Positions 3,191-55,438 of a DNA stretch of 57,115 bases are shown piece after piece. Numbering within the stretch: the stretch's first letter is position 1; each line of letters begins with the position of its first letter. Origin of the DNA: Pseudomonadota bacterium (GTDB lineage: Bacteria > Desulfobacterota > Desulfobulbia > Desulfobulbales > CALZHT01); NCBI GenBank assembly GCA_018823135.1, contig JAHJJF010000043.1:1-57115 (forward strand), written 5' to 3'. The notes under the pieces are model-generated. The model had not been told where the DNA came from, ran no database searches, and was given only the letters and a program-made list of their open reading frames with translations. The translations under genes were made by a program, and so were the position numbers.

Positions 3191-3280
3191 AACCGCAGAA
3201 TATCGAACAAGGAATATCGAATGTCGAAGTAACTGAAAAACTTCATCATTCTGCGGTTTCTTGTTCGATATTCGACATTT
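3191..3280. repeat. Word-repeat spacer (CCGCAGAAT / TATCGAA / AATGTCGAA)
   Basis: The glgM-glgE spacer carries the same short words in both orientations: ACCGCAGAAT, ATATCGAACAAG and AATGTCGAA near 3191-3230, and their complements at 3241-3280. The words are shuffled rather than forming one clean hairpin. It resembles the low-complexity heptamer spacers elsewhere in this window (6.8, 52.7 and 53.6 kb). A TCCGGC-TTC-GCCGGA hairpin follows directly at 3280-3294, abutting the glgM stop codon. Confidence 0.55.
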
Positions 3281-3294
3281 CCGGCTTCGCCGGA

Positions 3295-4497
3295 TTAGGT
3301 CACCATATCGTAGACAGCAAGCACCTTTTCGGCTACCGCAGCCCACCCGAACTGCGAGACCACCCGCTCCCGCCCCTTGCGGCCCATTTCCCGGCGCAGG
3401 TTCTCGTTGGCGACGAGCTCGTTTATGCGCGCCGCAAGCTCGGATGCGAACCTCTCCGGCTCGGCCGGTTCAAAGTCATCCGGAGCGGCTGGCGCAAATT
3501 CCACGAGAAAACCGGTTTCTCCCGGCACCACGACATCCTTGATGCCGCCGACACGGCTCGCCACCACCGGCGTTTCGCAGGCCATCGCTTCGAGGTTTAT
3601 GATGCCGAAAGGCTCGTAAATGGAGGGACAGCAGAACACTGCGGCGTGGGAATAGAGTTCGATGGCCTCGGGGCGCGTGACCATTTCCTGTAACCATATC
3701 ACATTGCCCCGTTCCTTTTGCAATGTTTCCACGGATTTTTTTATTTCCAGGGCGAACTCTGGGGTGTCGGGGGCCGAAGCACAGATGACCGCCTGGATCT
3801 CCGGCTTGAGTTGCCGGCCGGCCGCGATGAAGTGGGATATGCCTTTCTGGCGGCTGACCCGGCCGAGAAAGAGCACATAGGGGCGGTCGGGGTCAATGCC
3901 GTATTTCTCAAGGGCCGAGGTGGTGGTTACCGGCCTGTATTGGCTGGTATCGATGCCGTTGGGTATAACCTGCAGGCGGTTTTTCGCCACCTGAAAACGG
4001 CTCGCTATTTCCCGTCGATCGCTTTCCGAGACCGCAATCACCGCGTCGGCCATCTCGATGGCGGTCTTCTCTACCCAGGTCGAGAGATCGTAGCCGCGGC
4101 CGAGCTGCTCACGCTTCCAGGGCCTCAGAGGCTCCAGGGAATGCACGGTGATCACCAGCGGCACGCCGTAACAGATCTTGGCGAGGATGCCACCCCACAT
4201 GGAATACCAGGTATGGCAGTGCACGACGTCCGCCTCTACGGGCGCAGCGTTGAAGTGCAGGCAGCTCTGGAGCACCATGAGCGCCTGGCGCACACGGCGC
4301 GGGTTGCCCTCGAACATGTCGCTGCCAAAGGGGTAGCCGTGCACGGACGGGTTGTCGAAGTCGAGTCGTTGCTCGCCGAAGCATTTCACCTCCACGGTGG
4401 CCATGCGGGCCAGTTCCCGGGCGAGATATTCCACGTGCACCCCGGCGCCTCCATAGACGTGCGGCGGGTACTCACGAGTCATGATGACGACTTTCAT
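3295..4497 (-). CDS. glgM: Glycogen/maltose-1-phosphate synthase, GT4 (GlgM/actinobacterial GlgA type)
   Basis: GT4 glycosyltransferase of 400 residues. The N-terminus MKVVIMTREYPPHVYGGAG, followed by VHVEYLARELA, is the signature of the corynebacterial 'GlgA' family. Mycobacterial members make alpha-maltose-1-phosphate from ADP-glucose and glucose-1-phosphate. The donor-site motif is SIYEPFGIINLEAMACETPV, near residue 312. The start codon overlaps the glgX stop by 4 nt (ATGA), so translation is coupled. With glgE next door, the maltose-1-phosphate synthase role is favoured over elongation of glucan from ADP-glucose; that choice is inference from context. Confidence 0.88.
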   Translation of the reverse strand: MKVVIMTREYPPHVYGGAGVHVEYLARELARMATVEVKCFGEQRLDFDNPSVHGYPFGSDMFEGNPRRVRQALMVLQSCLHFNAAPVEADVVHCHTWYSMWGGILAKICYGVPLVITVHSLEPLRPWKREQLGRGYDLSTWVEKTAIEMADAVIAVSESDRREIASRFQVAKNRLQVIPNGIDTSQYRPVTTTSALEKYGIDPDRPYVLFLGRVSRQKGISHFIAAGRQLKPEIQAVICASAPDTPEFALEIKKSVETLQKERGNVIWLQEMVTRPEAIELYSHAAVFCCPSIYEPFGIINLEAMACETPVVASRVGGIKDVVVPGETGFLVEFAPAAPDDFEPAEPERFASELAARINELVANENLRREMGRKGRERVVSQFGWAAVAEKVLAVYDMVT

Positions 4498-6692
4498 GTG
4501 GATGTCTCCTCCTCTTTGTTGTTGGTGTTGGGAGATTTTTCCGGTCCCTGGCAGAATGAATCGGATTGGTCGGCCAGCAGCCAGACAAGAGACCGGGCCT
4601 GCAGCACGTAAGGCTCCCGGCCCTGATACAGGCCGGTTGGGGCGTTGTCAGGCGAGGTATTACTGGTGTCAAACACCGTTTGCCATGACCTCGCGGCGAG
4701 AAGCGGCGGGAGCTGGAAGGCGATTTCTTCGTGGTGGGCGTTAAAGAGCAGAAGATGGTCGCAGTCCCTGATACGGCGGCCGCGGCTATCGGATTCATCG
4801 ATGGCATCGCCGCCCAGGTACATGCCGAGACAGCGGGCGTATGAATCCCCCCATTCCTCGTCGGACATTTCCGTGCCGTTCGGCTGTAGCCAGAGGATAT
4901 CCTTGATGCCGGCGCCTTTCAGCCGTCGGCCAAGAAAAAAGTTTTGCCGACAAAAGGCCGGATGACGTTTGCGCAGGGCGATGAGCCGGCGCACGAATTC
5001 CAGGAAGCCCTGCTCCTCGTCATCGAGTTGCCAATTATGCCAGCTGAGCTCACTGTCCTGACAGTAGGAGTTATTGTTGCCGCCCTGGCTGCGGCCGATC
5101 TCATCGCCGGAAAGAATCATCGGTACGCCTTGGGAGAGGAGCAGGGTGGCCATGAAATTGCGTTTCTGCCTGGCCCTGAGGGCCTTGATCCCGGGATCGT
5201 CGGTGGGGCCTTCAACGCCACAGTTCCAGCTGAGGTTGTCATCCGAGCCGTCGCCGTTGTTCTCGATATTGGCCTCGTTGTGTTTGTGGTTATAGCTCAC
5301 GAGATCATGCAGGGTGAAGCCGTCATGGCAGGTGACGAAGTTGATGCTGGCATATGGCCGCCGGCCGCTCTTTTCGTAGAGGTCACTCGATCCCGTGAGG
5401 CGGTGGGCGATTTCGCCGATATGGCTGTCGTCACCTTTCCAATAGGCGCGTACCGTGTCCCGGTATATGCCGTTCCATTCGGTCCAGCCAACGGGGAAGT
5501 TTCCTACCTGATAGCCGCCTTCGCCGAGATCCCATGGTTCGGCGATGAGTTTTACCTGGGAAATGATCGGATCCTGATGGATGATATCGAAAAAGGCGGA
5601 TAGTCGGTCCACTTCGTGAAGCTCCCTGGCCAGCGCTGAAGCAAGGTCGAAACGGAAGCCGTCCACGTGCATCTCCAGCACCCAGTAACGAAGGCTGTCC
5701 ATGATGAGCTGCAGTACCCGGGGGTGACGCATGTTGAGGGTGTTGCCGCAGCCGGTGAAATCCATGAGATAGCGGGGATCATCAGGCATGAGCCGGTAAT
5801 AGGAGGCGTTGTCTATGCCCCGGAAGCAAAACGTTGGTCCGAGATGATTGCCCTCGGCCGTATGGTTGTAAACCACGTCCAGGATGACCTCGATGCCGGC
5901 TGAATGGAGGGCCTTCACCATGGTTTTGAATTCACTGATGTGACCAGTTGCGGAATAGCGCATTTCCGGGGCGAAAAAGCCAATGGAGTTATACCCCCAG
6001 TAATTCTTGAGTCCCTGCTCCACGAGATGGCGATCGTCGACAAAGGCGTGTACCGGCATAAGCTCGACCGCGGTGATGCCAAGCCGTTTCAGGTATTCCA
6101 CACTCGGGTAAGTGGCGAGACCGGCATAGGTACCGCGCAGCGACGTCGGCACCTCTGGATTTTGCCAGGTGAACCCCTTGACGTGGAGCTCGTAGATGAT
6201 CGTATCATGCCACGGGGTGTGGGGCGGTCGATCATCGCCCCAGGTGAAAGCGGTTTCTACCACCCGGCATTTCGGCATTCCCGCAGCGCTGTCTCGTCTG
6301 TCCCGGGCAAGATCGCCGCGGGGGCTGCCTACCCGGTAGCCGAAGAGCGCGTCGCTCCACTTGAACTCCCCCCACAGTGCTTTAGCGTAGGGGTCCAGAA
6401 GGAGCTTGTGAGGATTGAAGCGATGGCCGCGTCCCGGATCGTAAGGGCCGTGTACCCGGTAGCCATAGAGCTGATGGGGGCGGGCCTCGGGGAGATAGCA
6501 GTGGAAGATTTGATCTGTCTGCCAGCGCAGGTCGATACGTTCGATCTCCTGGCGTCCTTTGGTGTCGAAAAGGCAGAGCTCAACTTTTTCCGCATTTTCC
6601 GAAAAAATGGAGAAGTTAACCCCTTCGCCGTTCCAGGTGGCGCCGAGGGGATATGGTTCACCCGGCCACACGGTCATCTGTTTTTTTTCCAT
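4494..6692 (-). CDS. glgX: Glycogen debranching enzyme GlgX/TreX
   Basis: GH13_11 isoamylase-type enzyme that hydrolyses alpha-1,6 branches of glycogen. The N-terminal CBM48-like domain begins with PGEPYPLGATWNGEGVNFSI. The barrel carries VILDVVYNHTAEG near 269, MHVDGFRFDLASAL with Asp349, LIAEPWDLGEGGYQ with Glu385 and NFVTCHDGFTLHDLVSYNHK with Asp457. The 732-residue length is normal for GlgX. It is the first gene of the glgX-glgM pair (4-nt overlap). It lies about 250 nt downstream of treT on the same strand, so a longer transcript is possible. Confidence 0.94.
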   Translation of the reverse strand: MEKKQMTVWPGEPYPLGATWNGEGVNFSIFSENAEKVELCLFDTKGRQEIERIDLRWQTDQIFHCYLPEARPHQLYGYRVHGPYDPGRGHRFNPHKLLLDPYAKALWGEFKWSDALFGYRVGSPRGDLARDRRDSAAGMPKCRVVETAFTWGDDRPPHTPWHDTIIYELHVKGFTWQNPEVPTSLRGTYAGLATYPSVEYLKRLGITAVELMPVHAFVDDRHLVEQGLKNYWGYNSIGFFAPEMRYSATGHISEFKTMVKALHSAGIEVILDVVYNHTAEGNHLGPTFCFRGIDNASYYRLMPDDPRYLMDFTGCGNTLNMRHPRVLQLIMDSLRYWVLEMHVDGFRFDLASALARELHEVDRLSAFFDIIHQDPIISQVKLIAEPWDLGEGGYQVGNFPVGWTEWNGIYRDTVRAYWKGDDSHIGEIAHRLTGSSDLYEKSGRRPYASINFVTCHDGFTLHDLVSYNHKHNEANIENNGDGSDDNLSWNCGVEGPTDDPGIKALRARQKRNFMATLLLSQGVPMILSGDEIGRSQGGNNNSYCQDSELSWHNWQLDDEEQGFLEFVRRLIALRKRHPAFCRQNFFLGRRLKGAGIKDILWLQPNGTEMSDEEWGDSYARCLGMYLGGDAIDESDSRGRRIRDCDHLLLFNAHHEEIAFQLPPLLAARSWQTVFDTSNTSPDNAPTGLYQGREPYVLQARSLVWLLADQSDSFCQGPEKSPNTNNKEEETST

Positions 6693-45755: not shown

Positions 45756-48365
45756 ATGGCTCCCTCAAAATTCATCGGTTTTTCAATGAAAAGGCCGAAA
45801 ACGGTCACCGTCATAATGATCCTGGCAACCTTGCTTCTGGGATCTTTAATCAGCACAGTGCATGTTGACACCGACCCGGAAAACATGCTTTCCAAAGAGG
45901 AAGCGGTCCGCGTCTTTCACAACAAAGTCAAACAGGAATTCTCTCTCCATGATGTAGTGGTTGTCGGTATTGTCAACGAAGAACATCCTGACGGGGTATT
46001 CAACCCGGCCACCCTGAAAAACATCCAGAGCCTGACGGAATATTCACTGAACCTTTCTTCTGAAAAAGATCCGCAAAAAAGGGTTGTCACCCAAAATGTC
46101 ATTGCTCCGGGAACCGTCGACAACATTGAGCAGGCAGGGATGGGCCAGGTCCGCTTCGAATGGCTGATGAAAGAAGCCCCGACCTCTCGCGAAGGCGCCC
46201 TTGCAATCAGAGACAATGCGATGTCCAATCCTTTACTCAAAGGCACTCTGGTCTCTGAAGACGGCAAGGCTCTCTGTATATATCTGCCGATTACTGCAAA
46301 AGATTTTGCCTATGAACTTCGAACCCTGCTCCTTGATAATATTAGAACATTAGACACCTCGAACGGCGATAAATTTTACATTACCGGTCTTCCTGTTGCC
46401 GAAGACACCTTTGGAGTTGAAATGTTTATCCAGATGGCGGTATCCGCGCCCCTGGCCATGCTTGCCATCTTTATCCTCATGTTTATTTTCTTCAAAAAAA
46501 TCAACATGATCATTTCTCCGCTGATCATCGCCATGGTCTCGGTAATTGCAACCATGGGGCTATTAATCGGCGCGGGAAACACGCTTCATATCATGAGTTC
46601 CATGATCCCTATTTTCCTGATGCCCATTGCTGTTGTTGACAGTATCCATATACTTTCGGAATTTTTTGACAGATATCCGTCAATCGGGGACCGGCGAAAA
46701 ACTCTTGAACATGTCATGGACCAACTGTTCATGCCCATGTTCTATACTTCCCTCACCTCTGCGGCAGGTTTTTTGTCCCTTGCCCTTACCCCGATTCCGC
46801 CGGTGCAGGTATTCGGCATTTTTGTCGCTTTCGGAATCATGCTCGCATGGCTGTTAACGATTATTTTTGTTCCGGCATACATAATGATGCTGAAGGAGGA
46901 AAGCCTTTCCGGATTTGGCGCAGCCGTGCATGGCAATAAAAACGTCCATAGCGGGTTTCTGTCAAGACACCTGCGCTGGCTCGGCAAACTCACCTATAAT
47001 CAATCCAAACTTATCTTGGCCGCCACATTGATGATTCTTATCGTTGCCGCCTGGGGAATCACCAAAATAAACATCAATGACAACCCGGTAAAATGGTTCA
47101 AAAAAGACCACCCCATCCGCGTAGCAGACAAGGTCCTCAACCATCATTTCGGCGGCACCTATGAGGCCTATCTGGTGCTTACCGGCCAAGGAAGAGACAT
47201 GAGTGTTTCAGAAACAGCGGCACTCATAAACGAACAAATTAACAACGTCATTCCTGGCGGCGAAAACAGTCCGATCAGGGAAGACGCCGCTTTATCCCTT
47301 GATGAGATGCAAAAAACCAGCGGAACCCCCGAAGAATTGTTCAGGAAACTGACCGGGAATTTCGAAGAAAAAATGAATGCTGCAAATGACGCCGACTACG
47401 AGGTCTGGGGGAATATTCTTGACTCAGTTGCACAGGTAAAAAACCGTGGCCAGATTTTCAAACAACCGGAAATGCTGCGTTATATCGAAAAACTGCAAGC
47501 ATCGCTCGTGGAATCAGGCGCTGTGGGCAAAAGCAACTCTGTCGCCGATGTGGTCAAAAAGGTTTACCAGGAATTATACGAAGCAAATCCGGAATATTAT
47601 CGTATCCCTGACACCAGCAATGCCGTTGCCCAGAGTTTGATCTCTTTTCAGAACAGCCACAAACCCGACGATCTCTGGCATCTTGTCACCCCTGATTATA
47701 CAAAGGCAAATATCTGGGTACAGCTTAAAAGCGGCGACAATCAGGACATGGAAAAAGTTATCATCAAAATGGACGTTTTTTTTAAAGAAAATCCTCCTCC
47801 CATGGAAATCGAATATCAATGGGCCGGACTCACATACCTGAACGTCGTATGGCAGGATAAAATGGTCAATGGCATGCTGAAGTCATTTATGAGCAGCTTT
47901 GTCGTGGTCTTCATAATGATGGCTTTTCTTTTCCGTTCCCCGCTCTGGGGCCTGCTTGCCATGGTTCCGCTTTCCGTCACCATCGCGTTTATTTACGGAA
48001 TTATCGGCATTATTGGAAAAGACTATGACATGCCGGTTGCGGTGCTTTCGTCGCTTACTCTGGGGCTGGCGGTTGACTTTGCAATCCATTTCCTTGAACG
48101 ATCAAGGATGGTTTATAAAAAAACCGGCTCATGGAAAGCTGCAATCGAGGAGATGTTTGAAGAACCTGCCCGGGCGATCACCAGGAATGTAATCGTCATC
48201 GCCATCGGTTTCACCCCGCTCCTTGCGGCGCCGCTGGTTCCATACCAAACCGTTGGGGTTTTCCTGGCCAGCATAATGGCGGTGTCCGGTGTTGCCACGA
48301 TGATCATCCTGCCCGCTCTGGTGGCGACATTTGAACCCTGGCTGTTTAAAAAAAGTAACAAGTGA
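45756..48365 (+). CDS. RND/MMPL-family exporter
   Basis: 869 residues, inner membrane. Start has GGAGAG upstream. Topology is the duplicated RND plan: TM1 (TVTVIMILATLLLGSLI), a periplasmic loop of about 180 residues, helices at about 225-380 (AMLAIFILMFIFFKKINMII, MPIAVVDSIHILSEFFDR with the SSD-like conserved Asp), second TM group from LILAATLMILIVAAWGI, second loop, and final helices (VVFIMMAFLFRSP, LTLGLAVDFAIHFLERSRM). Proton-driven export of lipids or hydrophobic compounds is typical (HpnN/MmpL-like). It is followed by a LolA-like protein and an outer-membrane barrel, suggesting a trans-envelope route. Confidence 0.88.
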   Translation: MAPSKFIGFSMKRPKTVTVIMILATLLLGSLISTVHVDTDPENMLSKEEAVRVFHNKVKQEFSLHDVVVVGIVNEEHPDGVFNPATLKNIQSLTEYSLNLSSEKDPQKRVVTQNVIAPGTVDNIEQAGMGQVRFEWLMKEAPTSREGALAIRDNAMSNPLLKGTLVSEDGKALCIYLPITAKDFAYELRTLLLDNIRTLDTSNGDKFYITGLPVAEDTFGVEMFIQMAVSAPLAMLAIFILMFIFFKKINMIISPLIIAMVSVIATMGLLIGAGNTLHIMSSMIPIFLMPIAVVDSIHILSEFFDRYPSIGDRRKTLEHVMDQLFMPMFYTSLTSAAGFLSLALTPIPPVQVFGIFVAFGIMLAWLLTIIFVPAYIMMLKEESLSGFGAAVHGNKNVHSGFLSRHLRWLGKLTYNQSKLILAATLMILIVAAWGITKININDNPVKWFKKDHPIRVADKVLNHHFGGTYEAYLVLTGQGRDMSVSETAALINEQINNVIPGGENSPIREDAALSLDEMQKTSGTPEELFRKLTGNFEEKMNAANDADYEVWGNILDSVAQVKNRGQIFKQPEMLRYIEKLQASLVESGAVGKSNSVADVVKKVYQELYEANPEYYRIPDTSNAVAQSLISFQNSHKPDDLWHLVTPDYTKANIWVQLKSGDNQDMEKVIIKMDVFFKENPPPMEIEYQWAGLTYLNVVWQDKMVNGMLKSFMSSFVVVFIMMAFLFRSPLWGLLAMVPLSVTIAFIYGIIGIIGKDYDMPVAVLSSLTLGLAVDFAIHFLERSRMVYKKTGSWKAAIEEMFEEPARAITRNVIVIAIGFTPLLAAPLVPYQTVGVFLASIMAVSGVATMIILPALVATFEPWLFKKSNK

Positions 48366-48430
48366 CAAAATTTAACCACGAAGATCTCCGCGATCACCGA
48401 TTTTCTTGAAAACGTTAGAGGAGTTTAATC

Positions 48431-49228
48431 ATGAAAAAGATAGCCGCTATAATACTGGGAATTATCCTTTCAGCAGCCCTGTTATCCTCCCAGGGATTTG
48501 CAGAACAAGCCCTTTCTGTTGATGAAATCGTCAACAGAGCAAACCTTGCCGCATATTACGCCGGGAATGACGGACGTTCGGAAGTATCAATGACGATTAC
48601 CGACTCCCAGGGAAGAATTAGAAACCGCGAATTCGTCATCCTCAGACGAGATGTCGCAGATGGCGGCGACCAGCAATTCTATGTCTATTTCCAGAAACCC
48701 AGCGATGTCCGGAAAATGGTCTTCATGGTCCACAAACATATAGACAAGGACGACGACCGCTGGTTGTATCTACCGGCCCTCGACCTGGTAAAACGCATTG
48801 CTGCCGCGGACAAGCGAACCAGTTTTGTCGGCTCCCATTTTTTATACGAAGATGTATCCGGGCGATCGGCAACCGAAGACAACCACGAACTCATCGAAAC
48901 CACAGACTCCTCATATGTTCTTAAAAATATCCCCAAAGATCTGAAAAGCGTAGAATTCAGTTCTTATACCGTCTGGATAGATAAAAAAACTTTTCTGCCG
49001 ATGAAAGCCGAATACTTTGACAGCAACAACAAAAAATACCGCACCGTTGAAGCGCTCAAAACCGATACTATTCAGGGTCTCCCCACGGTTCTTTCTTCAC
49101 GGGTGCAGGATCTGAATTCAGGCGGGAACACGGTTACGGAGTTCACCAAAATACAATATGATATCGGCCTGGCCGACAACATCTTCACGGAACGCTATCT
49201 CCGGCGCGCGCCCAGAGAAGTGAGATAA
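48431..49228 (+). CDS. LolA-like outer-membrane lipoprotein-sorting protein
   Basis: 265 residues with a Sec signal (IILGIILSAALLSSQGFAEQ). The mature part has the LolA/LolB-like half-barrel pattern: VDEIVNRANLAAYYAGNDGR, EVSMTITDSQGRIRNREFVI, KMVFMVHKHIDKDDDRWLYL and the middle block SFVGSHFLYEDVSGR. It would carry a lipid-like substrate across the periplasm between the RND pump and the outer membrane. AGGAG lies 8 nt before the start. Gene order RND, LolA-like, barrel is repeated in many proteobacteria. Confidence 0.85.
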   Translation: MKKIAAIILGIILSAALLSSQGFAEQALSVDEIVNRANLAAYYAGNDGRSEVSMTITDSQGRIRNREFVILRRDVADGGDQQFYVYFQKPSDVRKMVFMVHKHIDKDDDRWLYLPALDLVKRIAAADKRTSFVGSHFLYEDVSGRSATEDNHELIETTDSSYVLKNIPKDLKSVEFSSYTVWIDKKTFLPMKAEYFDSNNKKYRTVEALKTDTIQGLPTVLSSRVQDLNSGGNTVTEFTKIQYDIGLADNIFTERYLRRAPREVR

Positions 49229-49234
49229 CGGATC

Positions 49235-50524
49235 ATGTATTATCGCCAAAACACATTAGTAGTCCTGACTGCCCTTTTATTCTTCATGCCCTTGCCGGTA
49301 TTCGCGATGGGCGTGTCAACGGCACAGGACTATCTGTCTGATAAATATCAGATAGATTTCAATGGTTTTATCGAGGCCCGGGCCGGCGGCAGAATAGACA
49401 ACACTGTCGATGAAAAGGATGCATCAATCGCCGAAACGCGTCTGCAGCTGGATTTCGGGAAAAATGCCACATGGGGAACCCTGAAATTGAAAGGCGATAT
49501 TCTGGGCGATCTTGTAACCGAAGAGCTGACTGCTGAACTCCGGGAACTCAATGTTGTCTCCTCTCCCTTTGATACAGTGGATATCAAGGCAGGACGTCAG
49601 GTGCTTACCTGGGGAACCGGCGACCTGCTGTTTATCAATGACCTTTTCCCAAAAGACTGGGAGTCCTTCTTCATCGGCCGGGATGACGAGTATCTTAAAG
49701 CGCCCAGTGATGCGATCAAAACCAGCCTGTTTCTTGACGCCTTCAACCTTGACTTGGTTTATGTTCCGGTCTTTAACGGCTCTAAATATATCGATGGATC
49801 GCGCATTTCTTACTGGAACTCGATGCAGAGCAGAATTGCCGGACGCGACTTCATCTTTACCGACCAGGAAAGAAACCACTTTTCCCGGGACAGCGAATAT
49901 GCCCTGCGGCTCTCGAAAAACCTCAATGGCACCGAACTTGCCCTTTATTTCTACAACGGCTTCTGGAATACTCCTGAGGGCGTTGATCCCCTTGCCATGG
50001 AACTCATCTATCCGCGCCTTTCCGTCTACGGTGCAAGCGCCAGGAAAGCCATATTGGGCGGAATCGGCAATACCGAAATCGGCTATTACGATTCACGACA
50101 GGACCCCGGCGGCGACGACCCGTTGATCCGCAACAGTGAAATCCGTTTTCTTGCCGGCTATGAAAGGGAGATTGCCAGAAACTTTTCCGGTGGCTTGCAG
50201 TATTATCTCGAGTACATGGAGGATTACGCGCAATATGAAAGCAGCATGCCGGCCGGTGCCCGGAAAAAAGATGAATACCGCCATTTAATCACCCTGCGCC
50301 TCACCAAACTGCTGATGAACCAGAATCTGCGCTTATCGGTTTTCACCTACTTTTCCCCATCTGACGAGGATGCCTATATTCGCCCCAAAGCAAATTATAA
50401 GCTTAACGATAACTGGTCAATCGAAGCCGGTGGCAACCTGTTCCGGGGAAAAAACGATCATACCTTCTGGGGACAGTTTGAGGACAACACCAATATCTAT
50501 GCCGGGACCCGCCTGAGTTTTTAA
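49235..50524 (+). CDS. Outer-membrane beta-barrel protein (DUF1302-like)
   Basis: 429 residues, signal peptide to about residue 24 (VVLTALLFFMPLPVFAMG). The rest alternates amphipathic strands ending in TNIYAGTRLSF with C-terminal Phe, the usual outer-membrane signature. Early blocks are FNGFIEARAGGRIDN, RLQLDFGKNATWGTLKLKGD and DTVDIKAGRQVLTWGTGDLL, as in DUF1302-type porins. It begins 6 nt after the LolA-like gene, so the two are co-translated. Likely the outer-membrane exit or sink of the RND system; cargo unknown. Confidence 0.83.
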   Translation: MYYRQNTLVVLTALLFFMPLPVFAMGVSTAQDYLSDKYQIDFNGFIEARAGGRIDNTVDEKDASIAETRLQLDFGKNATWGTLKLKGDILGDLVTEELTAELRELNVVSSPFDTVDIKAGRQVLTWGTGDLLFINDLFPKDWESFFIGRDDEYLKAPSDAIKTSLFLDAFNLDLVYVPVFNGSKYIDGSRISYWNSMQSRIAGRDFIFTDQERNHFSRDSEYALRLSKNLNGTELALYFYNGFWNTPEGVDPLAMELIYPRLSVYGASARKAILGGIGNTEIGYYDSRQDPGGDDPLIRNSEIRFLAGYEREIARNFSGGLQYYLEYMEDYAQYESSMPAGARKKDEYRHLITLRLTKLLMNQNLRLSVFTYFSPSDEDAYIRPKANYKLNDNWSIEAGGNLFRGKNDHTFWGQFEDNTNIYAGTRLSF

Positions 50525-50951: not shown

Positions 50952-52676
50952 ATGCCGGACCAAAACACTCCCCTGAAGTCGGCCGACTACTCCGAAAGCC
51001 TGCTGGTTCATTTCAGACGCATCGAAAGCCTCCGCCAGGAAGCCCTGTCTTTTCCGGCAATCGACCTGAACCACCGCCAGCTCTGCGACCTGGAAATGCT
51101 GTTGAACCGAGCTTTTTATCCCCTTAGAGGCTTCATGAATAAAGGGGATTACGAAAATGTGCTTGCAAACATGCGCCTCGCCGATGGCACCCTCTGGCCC
51201 ATGCCCATTTGCCTTGATATTGATGAAAAAACAGCCACGTCAATAAAGCCCGGCCAACAACTGGCGCTGAACGACCAGGAAGGATTCATGCTGGCGGTTC
51301 TCACCGTTGAAAGCATCTGGAGACCTGACAAAAAACTCGAGGCTGAAGCTGTTTTCGAAACCGATGATCCGGACAAACATTCCGGAGTCAGAAATCTTCT
51401 GGAGCAGACCGAATCCTGGTATGTGGGCGGCAGTCTGGAGGGACTCCATCTCCCCCTGCATTTTGATTTCAAGGAACTCCGCCTCACTCCTTCTGAAACG
51501 CACCGTTTCTTTTCACAAAGCGGCTGGCGGCAGGTTGTCGGCTTTCATACGGATAAATATCTTCATTGCGCTCACAAGGAAATGATCCTGCGCGCCGCCC
51601 GCGAAGCCGGGGCAAATATCCTCCTGCAACCGGTTGTCGGTTTGGGCCATCCAGGAAATCTTGATCATTATACCCATGTCCGTTGCTACCAGGAAATTGC
51701 CAAACAATTCCCCAAAAACATGATCCTTCTGGGCTTGCTTCCCCTGGCCAGCCGCATGGCCGGCCCCCGTGAAGCCCTCTGGCATGCAATAATCAAAAGA
51801 AACTATGGTTGCAGCCATATCATTATTGCCGAGGACCACGGCGATCCCAACGCCAACAACAAGAGCAACGGCCCCTTGTATACACGAGGATCGGCTCAGG
51901 AGCTTGTAAAGAAGTATGAGGAAGAAACCGGCATCATCATGGTGCCGCTCAGAAACATGGTCTATGTTGAGGATAAGGCCCAGTATGTCCTGGAGGATGA
52001 GGTACAGGAAGGCATGACCGTAAAGAATATCACCTCAACCGAACTCAAGCGCCGCCTGGAAAACGGCCTTGAGATTCCTGAATGGTTTTCTTTCCCCGGA
52101 GTGGTAAAAGAGCTGCGCTACGCCTTTCCGCCCCGCTCCAAACAGGGTTTTACAATCTTTATCACCGGCCTGTCCGGTGCAGGAAAGTCCACTATTGCCA
52201 AGGCCTTGATGGTGAAATTCCTGGAAATGCGCGATCGCCCGGTTACTCTGCTTGACGGCGATATTGTCAGAAAAAATCTTTCCAGCGAGCTCAACTTCTC
52301 CAAAGAACACCGGAATCTCAACATCACCAGAATCGGTTTCGTGGCAAGCGAAATCACCAAGAACGGCGGCATCGCCCTCTGTGCGCCCATCGCGCCCTAT
52401 GAGGAATCACGACAGATAAGCCGGAAGATGATCAGCCAGTACGGCGGCTACATTGAAGTGTTCATGTCAACCCCCATGGAAGTCTGCGAGCAGCGCGACA
52501 GAAAAGGCCTTTACGCAAAAGCCCGGGCCGGAAAAATCAAGGGAGTCACCGGAGTCTCCGATCCGTATATCCCGCCCTCAAATCCTGAAATCACCATCGA
52601 CACCTCGACAATGACCCCGGCCGAGGCAACCCAGGAAGTCCTGCTGTATCTTGAAGAACAGGGGTATATAAAATAG
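50952..52676 (+). CDS. Sat-CysC-type fusion (ATP sulfurylase/APS kinase) with altered active site
   Basis: 574 residues, aligning by eye end to end with the Aquifex fusion enzyme. Sulfurylase part 1-395 keeps RAFYPLRGFMNKGDYENV, HPGNLDHYTHVR and ASRMAGPREALWHAIIKRNY. The canonical QTRNP is HTDKY (199-203), leaving H205xxH208; GRDHA is AEDHG (293-297). Both substrate-binding arginines are thus Asp or Glu. The kinase part 396-574 has Walker A GLSGAGKSTIAKAL, LLDGDIVRKNL and APYEESRQISR, but LNFSKEHRNLN where FSxEDR is usual. Sulfate chemistry is doubtful; a different adenylyl or phosphoryl transfer is possible. A heptamer array abuts the stop. Confidence 0.82.
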   Translation: MPDQNTPLKSADYSESLLVHFRRIESLRQEALSFPAIDLNHRQLCDLEMLLNRAFYPLRGFMNKGDYENVLANMRLADGTLWPMPICLDIDEKTATSIKPGQQLALNDQEGFMLAVLTVESIWRPDKKLEAEAVFETDDPDKHSGVRNLLEQTESWYVGGSLEGLHLPLHFDFKELRLTPSETHRFFSQSGWRQVVGFHTDKYLHCAHKEMILRAAREAGANILLQPVVGLGHPGNLDHYTHVRCYQEIAKQFPKNMILLGLLPLASRMAGPREALWHAIIKRNYGCSHIIIAEDHGDPNANNKSNGPLYTRGSAQELVKKYEEETGIIMVPLRNMVYVEDKAQYVLEDEVQEGMTVKNITSTELKRRLENGLEIPEWFSFPGVVKELRYAFPPRSKQGFTIFITGLSGAGKSTIAKALMVKFLEMRDRPVTLLDGDIVRKNLSSELNFSKEHRNLNITRIGFVASEITKNGGIALCAPIAPYEESRQISRKMISQYGGYIEVFMSTPMEVCEQRDRKGLYAKARAGKIKGVTGVSDPYIPPSNPEITIDTSTMTPAEATQEVLLYLEEQGYIK

Positions 52677-52830: not shown

Positions 52831-53547
52831 TCAGCCTTGAGCTTTCAGCTCCTTCACAATTCTTTCCCCAATTGGCCTGAAGAATCCATAGGCATCATCA
52901 AGATTTTCACACCAGGGTATTCTTCCGAAGACTTTCACATCCCCTATTTCAACAATACTCCGCATATTATCTTCCACCAGGTGTTCATTTTCATCCGGCG
53001 AGGAATCGGAAAGAATCACTCCGGTTATGGGAATGTCCCTGTTTCGTAGTGCTTCAAGGGTCAACAGGGTGTGGTTCAACGTTCCAAGGCCGCTTCTGGC
53101 CACAACAAGTGTCCGGAACTTACACCCTGAGATAAGATCGGCAAGGAGCAGATCGCGCCGTAACGGCACAAGCACACCACCGACGCCCTCAAGGAGGACA
53201 ATCTCGTACTTTAACGCCAAACTCCTGGTGCAGTCTATAAGTACCGCAGAATCAATGGCCCGTTTATCTGTTTCCGCAGCAAGATGCGGCGAAGCAGGCA
53301 GGGAGAACCTGTATGGTGAGAGTTCGTCAAGATTGATTGATTCTTTATTAATCCCGGCAAAATCAAGACACCGGAACAGATCTCCAGAAATCTCGGCACT
53401 TCCGGTGCTCACCCATTTCTGATAGCAGGCATCAATGCCTTTTTCCCGGAAAAACCGCAGCAGCAAGGCGCAAACAAAGGTCTTTCCCACATCCGTGTCC
53501 GTGCCGGTGATGAATATAACGTTATGTGTTTTGTTAATCGTATTCAT
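52831..53547 (-). CDS. bioD: Dethiobiotin synthetase BioD
   Basis: 238 residues. Makes dethiobiotin from 7,8-diaminopelargonate, CO2 and ATP. P-loop FITGTDTDVGKTFVCALLLR near 13, the substrate loop QKWVSTG near 43 (Trp in place of the usual Pro-Val of KPV), metal/phosphate motif VLLEGVGGVLVPL, and LVVARSGLGTLNHTLLTLEA. Length normal. It lies downstream of the BioH-BioC fusion on the same strand with a word-repeat spacer, so both supply biotin synthesis. bioA, bioB and bioF are not in the window. Confidence 0.92.
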   Translation of the reverse strand: MNTINKTHNVIFITGTDTDVGKTFVCALLLRFFREKGIDACYQKWVSTGSAEISGDLFRCLDFAGINKESINLDELSPYRFSLPASPHLAAETDKRAIDSAVLIDCTRSLALKYEIVLLEGVGGVLVPLRRDLLLADLISGCKFRTLVVARSGLGTLNHTLLTLEALRNRDIPITGVILSDSSPDENEHLVEDNMRSIVEIGDVKVFGRIPWCENLDDAYGFFRPIGERIVKELKAQG

Positions 53548-53766: not shown

Positions 53767-55236
53767 TCACCTTCTCGCCACAATATAAATAATCTCATAA
53801 CTCATACAATACCCCCCATACTGCTCTGTAAACCATGCATCAAGAGCAGCCAGCCTTTTTCTTGTCAGAACCAGAGGCGCCGACGCCTGCCAGCCGCCGG
53901 TTCCGGTCATTTTAATATGGGCCATGAGATCCAGAAACGAACTGTATTGCTTCCTGACAAATTCACTTTCAACTGATACGGTCTGGAAATGTGGCTCAAA
54001 AAAAATTTCCAGTTCGTTCTTTCCGTGAAATTTCCTGGCCGGTAGATCAACATCGCGATTCATAATTGCTGAAAGCCCCTTGCTCACTTCCTCAAGGGAT
54101 CGAGGTCCAAAAAAAGAGCCGGTAAAGCTGCCGCCCGGTTGCAGAATCCTGCTGATGCCTTCTACTGCCTGCCTGGTATCATCGAACCACTGCATGGTGG
54201 CATTGGAGGTTACAAAATCAAACTTTTTTCCTGTCTGCCTCAGGAAACGCTCCCCGTCCTCGCAGAGAAACTTGACGCGCGCCTTGCCGGAACATTTCTT
54301 TCGAGCTTGAGCAATCATCGCTTCTGAAAAATCAAGCCCGGTAATATCTGCCACAGGAAATTTTTCTGCCAGCATCAATGTATAATTTCCAGTACCGCAG
54401 CCGATTTCCAAAACCGTCTTAACAGTGGACGATTGTTGAAACTTTGTGTTCAATTGAAGAGCAACATCATTCTGGACCCGGGAATATAAATCATAGGTGC
54501 CAGCCGCTTTGGAAAATCCTGCCTTGATTTTTTCTTTTTTGGATGAAGGAGACACAGAAAGAAGTTTGCTAAACTGCTCTGCCAAAAAAACCGGATGCCC
54601 GCAATGTTCAACGATCTCAGTGCGACATCCTGGAAAGCCCGGCATCTGTTCAACCGGGGCGATGATATCCTTTTTGCCATGGAGCAGAATCGTCTCGACC
54701 CCCTGCACAGGAATAACTTCATCTTTATGGAGATAATCCATCCCCATGGCAAGGAGTTCTGGGTCAATCTTCGCCAGAAGCTTTTCTTGATGAATAGTTT
54801 GAAATTTCCTGTAAGCGTCCTTATGACCTAAAAAACATTTCCGGTAAAATGATCTCAGAAAAACCTGATAGTCTTCAGCAAGTCCGGCCTTGATATCCTC
54901 AACCTCCTGGAGCGGCCAACTTTTTCGCAATGACAACAAAATAAGTTTTGAAACCCTTTCAGGATAAACCTTGGCAAAATCAAGGGCAAGATTCGCGCCC
55001 ATGGACCAGCCTGCAAGAATAATGCGGTCAATCTTCTCTGAATCGAGAAATTCCTGCAGATCGCTCACGAAACTCGTCGGATCAACAAAAATTTCCGGGT
55101 GATAAAAAGAATTTTCCTGACCGGCAAGGCCCACACTTTCGAACGTAAAGCCCCAGCCCGGGATAAAAAAAACCGGAAGGCCCGAAAAATTTTCAGGCCC
55201 TGTTCGACTGAATTTATGTTGCACAGTTTCTTTCAT
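53767..55236 (-). CDS. BioH-BioC fusion: pimeloyl-ACP esterase plus malonyl-ACP methyltransferase
   Basis: 489 residues from MKETVQHKFSRTG; a longer frame to 55383 starts with TTG and spans a palindrome, so it is not used. N-terminal alpha/beta hydrolase (about 20-225): FFIPGWGFTFESVG, nucleophile Ser78 in LAGWSMGANLALDFAK, Asp190 in LHGKKDIIAP and His214 in EHCGHPVFLAE, matching BioH. C-terminal SAM methyltransferase (about 235-489): IKAGFSKAAGTYDLYSRVQ, VLEIGCGTGNYTLML near 275, SNATMQWFDD, as in BioC. BioC caps malonyl-ACP and BioH removes the cap after elongation, so the first and last steps of pimelate synthesis share one chain. bioD follows. Confidence 0.88.
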   Translation of the reverse strand: MKETVQHKFSRTGPENFSGLPVFFIPGWGFTFESVGLAGQENSFYHPEIFVDPTSFVSDLQEFLDSEKIDRIILAGWSMGANLALDFAKVYPERVSKLILLSLRKSWPLQEVEDIKAGLAEDYQVFLRSFYRKCFLGHKDAYRKFQTIHQEKLLAKIDPELLAMGMDYLHKDEVIPVQGVETILLHGKKDIIAPVEQMPGFPGCRTEIVEHCGHPVFLAEQFSKLLSVSPSSKKEKIKAGFSKAAGTYDLYSRVQNDVALQLNTKFQQSSTVKTVLEIGCGTGNYTLMLAEKFPVADITGLDFSEAMIAQARKKCSGKARVKFLCEDGERFLRQTGKKFDFVTSNATMQWFDDTRQAVEGISRILQPGGSFTGSFFGPRSLEEVSKGLSAIMNRDVDLPARKFHGKNELEIFFEPHFQTVSVESEFVRKQYSSFLDLMAHIKMTGTGGWQASAPLVLTRKRLAALDAWFTEQYGGYCMSYEIIYIVARR

Positions 55237-55306
55237 TAGAATATTAAATTTCTGTTGTTTTCCCCAAGGCATGGGGAGAAGATTTCCATCTTTGACAAAG
55301 TACGTT

Positions 55307-55335
55307 TTCCGGGAATCCGGTCCGGATTCCCGGAA
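55307..55335. repeat. 29-bp near-perfect palindrome upstream of the BioH-BioC gene
   Basis: TTCCGGGAATCCGG (55307-55320), a single T, and CCGGATTCCCGGAA (55322-55335): perfect 14-bp arms. It lies 71-99 nt before the chosen start, in the 5' leader, and may form RNA structure or an operator. Confidence 0.7.
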
Positions 55336-55438
55336 ATAATCAGGGTGATTCACCCCATCCTCTGCGTCTCCGCCCCTAAGCAAAAGTGTAACATGTTGAT
55401 ATAACTTTTAAAAAAAAGATTACACACCTCGTCGTTTA

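Follow-up and report, generated by a model that had tools for sequence, protein, structure and literature searches.

The open reading frame at positions 50952-52676 of the window (the whole stretch of DNA analysed, 57,115 nucleotides) is very probably the gene of an APS kinase that carries a conserved, catalytically dead sulfurylase-like scaffold as its N-terminal half. The protein is a widespread and real variant of an already known enzyme type; what is new is the breadth of its lineage, the repeated loss of the sulfurylase site and the set of clade-specific residues fixed in the dead cleft. A literature search covering open-licence papers found no description of the clade.

According to the proposed mechanism, a separate canonical ATP sulfurylase (Sat) would make APS, which would also feed dissimilatory sulfate reduction, the C-terminal kinase of the window protein would phosphorylate APS to PAPS, and this PAPS would be passed on to sulfotransferases. 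The N-terminal half, having lost APS synthesis, would be retained as an oligomerisation or allosteric scaffold keeping the kinase active, on which the kinase may depend for assembly or turnover; precedents are the enzyme of Entamoeba, where such dependence was measured, and, among bacteria, that of Thiobacillus denitrificans. The sequence, the lost site residues, the intact kinase motifs, the second canonical Sat, the single APS kinase and the purifying selection were observed directly; we infer that sulfurylase activity is lost, that the N-terminal half acts as a scaffold and that PAPS reaches sulfotransferases.

Domain architecture and the altered sulfurylase site

The open reading frame is uninterrupted, lies on the forward strand, starts with ATG and encodes 574 amino acids. 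The features assigned to it are the following:

50952..52676, forward strand: predicted gene of a two-domain APS kinase (pseudo-ATP-sulfurylase fused to APS kinase), from the intact ORF, the Pfam and NF004040 matches and an AlphaFold2 model
51006..51446, forward strand: PUA-like N-terminal domain, residues 19-165 (PF14306, PUA_2, E 7e-46)
51474..52118, forward strand: former ATP-sulfurylase catalytic subdomain, residues 175-389, predicted inactive (PF01747; active-site residues lost)
51546..51584, forward strand: altered QxRN/HxxH motif HTDKYLHCAHKEM, residues 199-211, from the alignment (C206, H208, E210 and M211 fixed in the clade, H205 nearly so; 201 and 202 variable)
51828..51851, forward strand: altered GRD loop AEDHGDPN, residues 293-300, from the alignment (D298 and P299 fixed in the clade, 294 variable)
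52032..52055, forward strand: altered SGTxxR (pyrophosphate) motif TSTELKRR, residues 361-368, from the alignment (S362 fixed in the clade)
52143..52601, forward strand: complete APS kinase domain, residues 398-550 (PF01583)

The PUA_2, ATP-sulfurylase and APS_kinase domains all score far above the Pfam cut-offs, and the PUA plus ATP-sulfurylase fold lies N-terminal to the APS kinase, which is the architecture of the two-domain APS kinase of T. denitrificans. The AlphaFold2 monomer model (mean pLDDT 85.8) has as its closest PDB folds by Foldseek those of Penicillium 1I2D/1M8P (the best match), Aquifex 2GKS and T. denitrificans 3CR8. The protein also reaches 877 bits (cut-off 669) against NF004040, 'bifunctional sulfate adenylyltransferase/adenylylsulfate kinase', a model that is blind to active-site residues and whose cut-off, when exceeded, says nothing on them.

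Alignment with Aquifex 2GKS and Penicillium 1I2D places HTDKY (residues 199-203) opposite QTRNP and AEDHG (residues 293-297) opposite GRDHA, in agreement with the original prediction; over residues 199-208 the canonical QTRNPxHRAH reads HTDKYLHCAH. A fusion from another genome of the same family (L150) also carries HTDKYLHCAH and AEDH, so the changes are not sequencing noise. They extend beyond the two arginines to the equivalents of Q199, N202, P203, R206, M267, M269, G293 and F333, as well as to the lid, where the Lys and Asp of GxxKxxD are replaced (GLGHPGN); T200, H205, H208 and the His of the GRD loop are retained.

The role of these positions can be read from the structure of the A. vinosum enzyme (PMC3779200), the residue numbering of that paper nearly coinciding with that of the window protein: Gln199 and Arg201 bind sulfate through its oxygens, the alpha-phosphate is held by Thr200, Arg201 and Asn202, the ribose is met by Gly295, Arg296 and His298, and the pyrophosphate is handled by Asn202, His205, His208 and Arg365. 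In the window protein the sulfate- and phosphate-binding residues are replaced (Q199H, R201D, N202K, G293A, R294E), as is characteristic of the T. denitrificans type, and the intact QxRN and GRD of a bifunctional PAPS synthetase give way to HTDK and AED. Because the first three of these residues and the GRD loop are lost, the N-terminal half should not make APS; as far as can be judged from sequence, the binding and activation of sulfate should fail at this site, its sulfate and alpha-phosphate residues having gone together with the loop. Against a dead scaffold speaks the retention of H205 and H208, both needed for sulfurylase catalysis.

It is very unlikely that we are dealing with a normal bifunctional PAPS synthetase working with unusual residues: NF004040 names the protein bifunctional, and both the fold and the HxxH are kept, but nearly all the side-chain contacts to sulfate and phosphate are lost, and the T. 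denitrificans protein, with fewer changes at these contacts (QARQP, GGEH), is reported to have no sulfurylase activity.

Distribution, variation and selection in the clade

Within the class to which the source genome belongs, 101 of 258 genomes contain a close fusion (E <= 1e-150), and the nearest named contigs belong to metagenome-assembled genomes labelled Desulfobulbaceae, Deltaproteobacteria, Desulfohalobiaceae and similar. Fifty-seven sequences carry LHCAH[KR]EM together with DP after the former GRDHA. On a maximum-likelihood tree of 97 proteins, calculated with the motif columns left out, the altered state represents four changes, at least three of them forced by well-supported branches; T. 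denitrificans 3CR8 falls outside the clade of the window protein, on a long branch whose placement is unsure. Several other lineages have lost the sulfurylase site independently, some of them being very divergent or devoid of part of the GRD loop (L028, L026). At one locus (L130; G326:C187:1-6614) two divergent paralogues of the degenerate fusion, some 50% identical to the window protein, adjoin each other in opposite orientation, and the same genome has a third copy which is closer to the window protein.

Within the 57-member clade, position 201 is occupied by E (26), D (18), R (8), Q (2), K (2) or G (1), and position 294 by D (20), E (13), P (10) or A (9), with T, C and N in the remainder; no more than 25 of the 57 are acidic at both. 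The original prediction had treated the two replacements as coordinated, had read them as suggesting a different, perhaps cationic or neutral, substrate, and had anticipated a clade sharing the motifs. A large clade does share altered motifs, but its acidic pair is not fixed, and the coordination disappears with it; since positions 201 and 294 vary, with R, K, Q, P, A and N among their residues, there is no support for a swap of charge that would suit a new substrate, and the idea was discarded. The separate canonical Sat, the intact kinase and 3CR8, less altered at these contacts and reportedly inactive as a sulfurylase, speak against it as well.

A new adenylyltransferase of the kind suggested in the original prediction, with the acidic pair receiving a substrate that is cationic or neutral, is extremely unlikely. 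It would agree with the retention of H205 and H208, on the nucleotide/pyrophosphate side, and with the purifying selection on the domain, but not with the minority of members in which both positions are acidic; moreover, the protein lacks N202, a ligand of the alpha-phosphate, as well as the G and R of the GRD loop on the ribose side, and therefore ATP binding itself should be weakened.

The former sulfurylase subdomain is kept by purifying selection. For residues 173-390, dN/dS in close clade pairs is 0.046 (L163/L127), 0.091 (L116/L119), 0.040 (L049/L051), 0.055 (L157/L169) and 0.118 (L050/L052), and 0.016, 0.048 and 0.077 in canonical pairs; it is low in both halves of the fusion. The NG86 values of distant pairs (e.g. 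L122/L135) were disregarded on account of saturation and base composition. A domain decaying on its way to loss, which the original prediction had already doubted, is scarcely credible: independent site losses in several lineages, together with the very divergent or partly GRD-less sequences mentioned above, might point that way, but the subdomain ratios of about 0.04-0.12, near the range of the canonical pairs, led to its rejection, and 74 positions are nearly invariant between residues 25 and 390 of the clade.

Fixed residues of the cleft and comparison with known enzymes

All 57 clade members have L204, C206, A207, H208, E210, M211, D298, P299 and S362, while H205 is found in 56 and H199 in 53; C206 was among the features by which the clade was defined. 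In canonical enzymes position 206 is R, position 298 is in most cases G or S, and position 362 is usually G. Half of the newly fixed residues (8/16) lie in the five loops of the former active site, which together account for 50 of the 366 positions (P 4e-4, or 0.001 without C206); the loops were picked from the published description and are partly our own choice, and phylogeny is ignored in the test, which makes the enrichment a lead and not a proof. It suggests that something new now constrains the former cleft, be it packing or a ligand not bound before, and such a share of fixed residues in dead-cleft loops is not expected of a pure scaffold.

It is conceivable, though rather unlikely, that the cleft has been repurposed to bind another ligand (e.g. 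APS, PAPS, ATP, pyrophosphate or a metal) and to control the kinase allosterically, without catalysis. This would account for the way in which H199, H205, C206, H208, E210, M211, D298 and S362 are fixed or nearly fixed in 57 diverse members while the sulfate-binding residues vary, and for the concentration of new residues in the loops; in fungal ATP sulfurylase, conversely, it is the kinase domain that is dead and has been retained as a regulator (PMC2275785). On the other hand, the fixed residues may merely pack together in a rigid core, and the choice of loops and the neglect of phylogeny weigh on the enrichment. With the same reserve, the dead cleft, rebuilt into a new binding site around the fixed or nearly fixed H199, H205, C206, H208, M211, D298 and S362, might act as a sulfonucleotide, pyrophosphate or metal sensor regulating PAPS synthesis in sulfate reducers; the protein, if this is true, would mirror the fungal enzyme. 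The reason for the clade-specific fixed residues in a dead cleft is the point of interest here.

The preferred reading, a dead scaffold joined to an active kinase, finds its bacterial counterpart in T. denitrificans 3CR8 ('Hexameric APS kinase'; Gay et al. 2009, PMC2756168), a two-domain hexameric protein with an active kinase and, as the title of its paper and other papers report, no sulfurylase activity. It has the same domain order as the window protein, the two kinase domains are 63% identical, and FSKAHR of T. denitrificans corresponds to FSKEHR of the window protein. The T. denitrificans protein differs in that it keeps R at 201, but with Q at 202 and 208 (QARQP) and GGEH for GRDH; it has fewer changes at the sulfate/phosphate contacts, it is without the clade signature C206, M211 and D298, and it groups apart on the tree.

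The APS kinase of Entamoeba histolytica shares the architecture and also has a dead N-terminal sulfurylase-like domain, which is needed there for full kinase turnover (PMC13213808): its deletion lowers kcat about 100-fold, with a warning of aggregation by the authors, and point mutations at the interface lower it 21- to 60-fold (PMC13213808). The enzyme has an E90-Y133 contact. Unlike the window protein, that enzyme is eukaryotic and shorter, with a sulfurylase-like domain of 293 residues from which the substrate-binding loop is wholly absent (PMC13213808). Why a dead sulfurylase half persists was left open by the T. denitrificans and Entamoeba structures, and the clade offers many natural sequences with which to ask the question.

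As regards the active enzymes, bifunctional Aquifex aeolicus 2GKS agrees with the window protein in fold (TM-score by target length, 0.90) and in the order of domains but keeps QTRNP, HRVH and GRDHA. Fungal ATP sulfurylase (Penicillium 1I2D/1M8P) shares the architecture and likewise has one catalytically dead half; it represents the mirror case, with an active sulfurylase and a regulatory kinase-like half (PMC2275785), its P-loop and DGD being broken whereas those of the window protein are intact.

The kinase, APS supply and gene neighbourhood

The kinase half retains its P-loop (GLSGAGKST, 406-414), DGD (435-437) and RDRKGLY (515-521), and across the clade the P-loop, DGD, the HRxxN region, RDRKGLY (RDxKGLY) and TGxxDPY are invariant or nearly so. 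The sequence FSKEHR, regarded in the original prediction as unusual against FSxEDR, turned out to be the usual one in bacterial fusions, with H at position 453 in 88 of the 97, among them 12 of the 14 whose sulfurylase site is fully canonical, as well as in T. denitrificans; the supposed anomaly was dropped, and the prediction was most likely wrong on the kinase and on the new substrate alike. The window gene is the sole PF01583 (APS_kinase) match in its genome, and the fusion is the only such match above 100 bits in 22 of 24 degenerate-fusion genomes; in two genomes (G407 and G119) a separate APS kinase gives a strong match, and in three (G542, G277 and G213) a weaker one.

A separate, stand-alone Sat with QLRNPMHRSH and GRDHA is encoded on contig C89, which also carries dsrA and, beside it, a second and weaker dsrA-like match, presumably dsrB. 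QxRN and GRDHA were found in all 21 stand-alone Sat copies inspected. Of the 86 genomes whose fusion is degenerate, 82 contain a second PF01747 gene, the four showing no second Sat being all draft assemblies; two other genomes (G220 and G263) have no second copy, and their fusions have the canonical site. The link between second Sat and degenerate fusion (82/86 vs 5/7, P 0.06) is no more than suggestive. In one genome (G308:C65:7244-9254) two ATP-sulfurylase matches stand side by side, in open frames of 444 and 376 amino acids, and the degenerate fusion lies elsewhere.

Since NF004040 labels the fusions as bifunctional, pathway reconstructions of sulfate reducers would count an extra sulfate-activating enzyme, and this second enzyme is probably dead.

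On the side of PAPS use, the genome of the window has three sulfotransferases in a polysaccharide cluster on contig C92. PF13469 sulfotransferases are found in 74 of 101 fusion-bearing genomes, and thus in all but 27, as against 63 of 157 without the fusion (P 2e-7, phylogeny not corrected). In six related loci (L045, L048, L049, L051, L131 and L132) the fusion adjoins a gene of the inositol-monophosphatase family (Inositol_P), which includes CysQ; the neighbour in L051 was assigned to this family by its clustering with the others. The clade suggests that a dedicated kinase, tied to sulfotransferases, can draw off respiratory APS for the synthesis of PAPS.

In L131, the gene beside the degenerate Sat-CysC fusion (3237-4589, reverse strand) is itself a fusion, combining Sulfotransfer_4 with a CysQ-like domain of the inositol-monophosphatase type.

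Among the fusion's own neighbours in the window (MMPL, LolA-like, DUF1302, bioD and BioC), neither a sulfotransferase nor CysQ was found; this speaks against the proposed scheme, as do the four degenerate-fusion genomes showing no second Sat and the 27 fusion-bearing genomes showing no PF13469 hit. Directly upstream, at 45756-50524 (forward strand), lie genes for an MMPL/RND transporter, a LolA-like and a DUF1302-like protein; the trio is also upstream in L150, and its last two members in L152. As these genes recur only there, the operon was dropped as a functional clue; other clade members have two-component genes nearby or nothing in common.

Downstream, bioD (52831-53547, reverse strand) adjoins an open reading frame of 538 amino acids (53767-55383, reverse strand) in which an alpha/beta-hydrolase (BioH-like) half is fused to a BioC-like methyltransferase half. 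A similar long frame is found in L150, while L153 and L034 appear to have separate frames.
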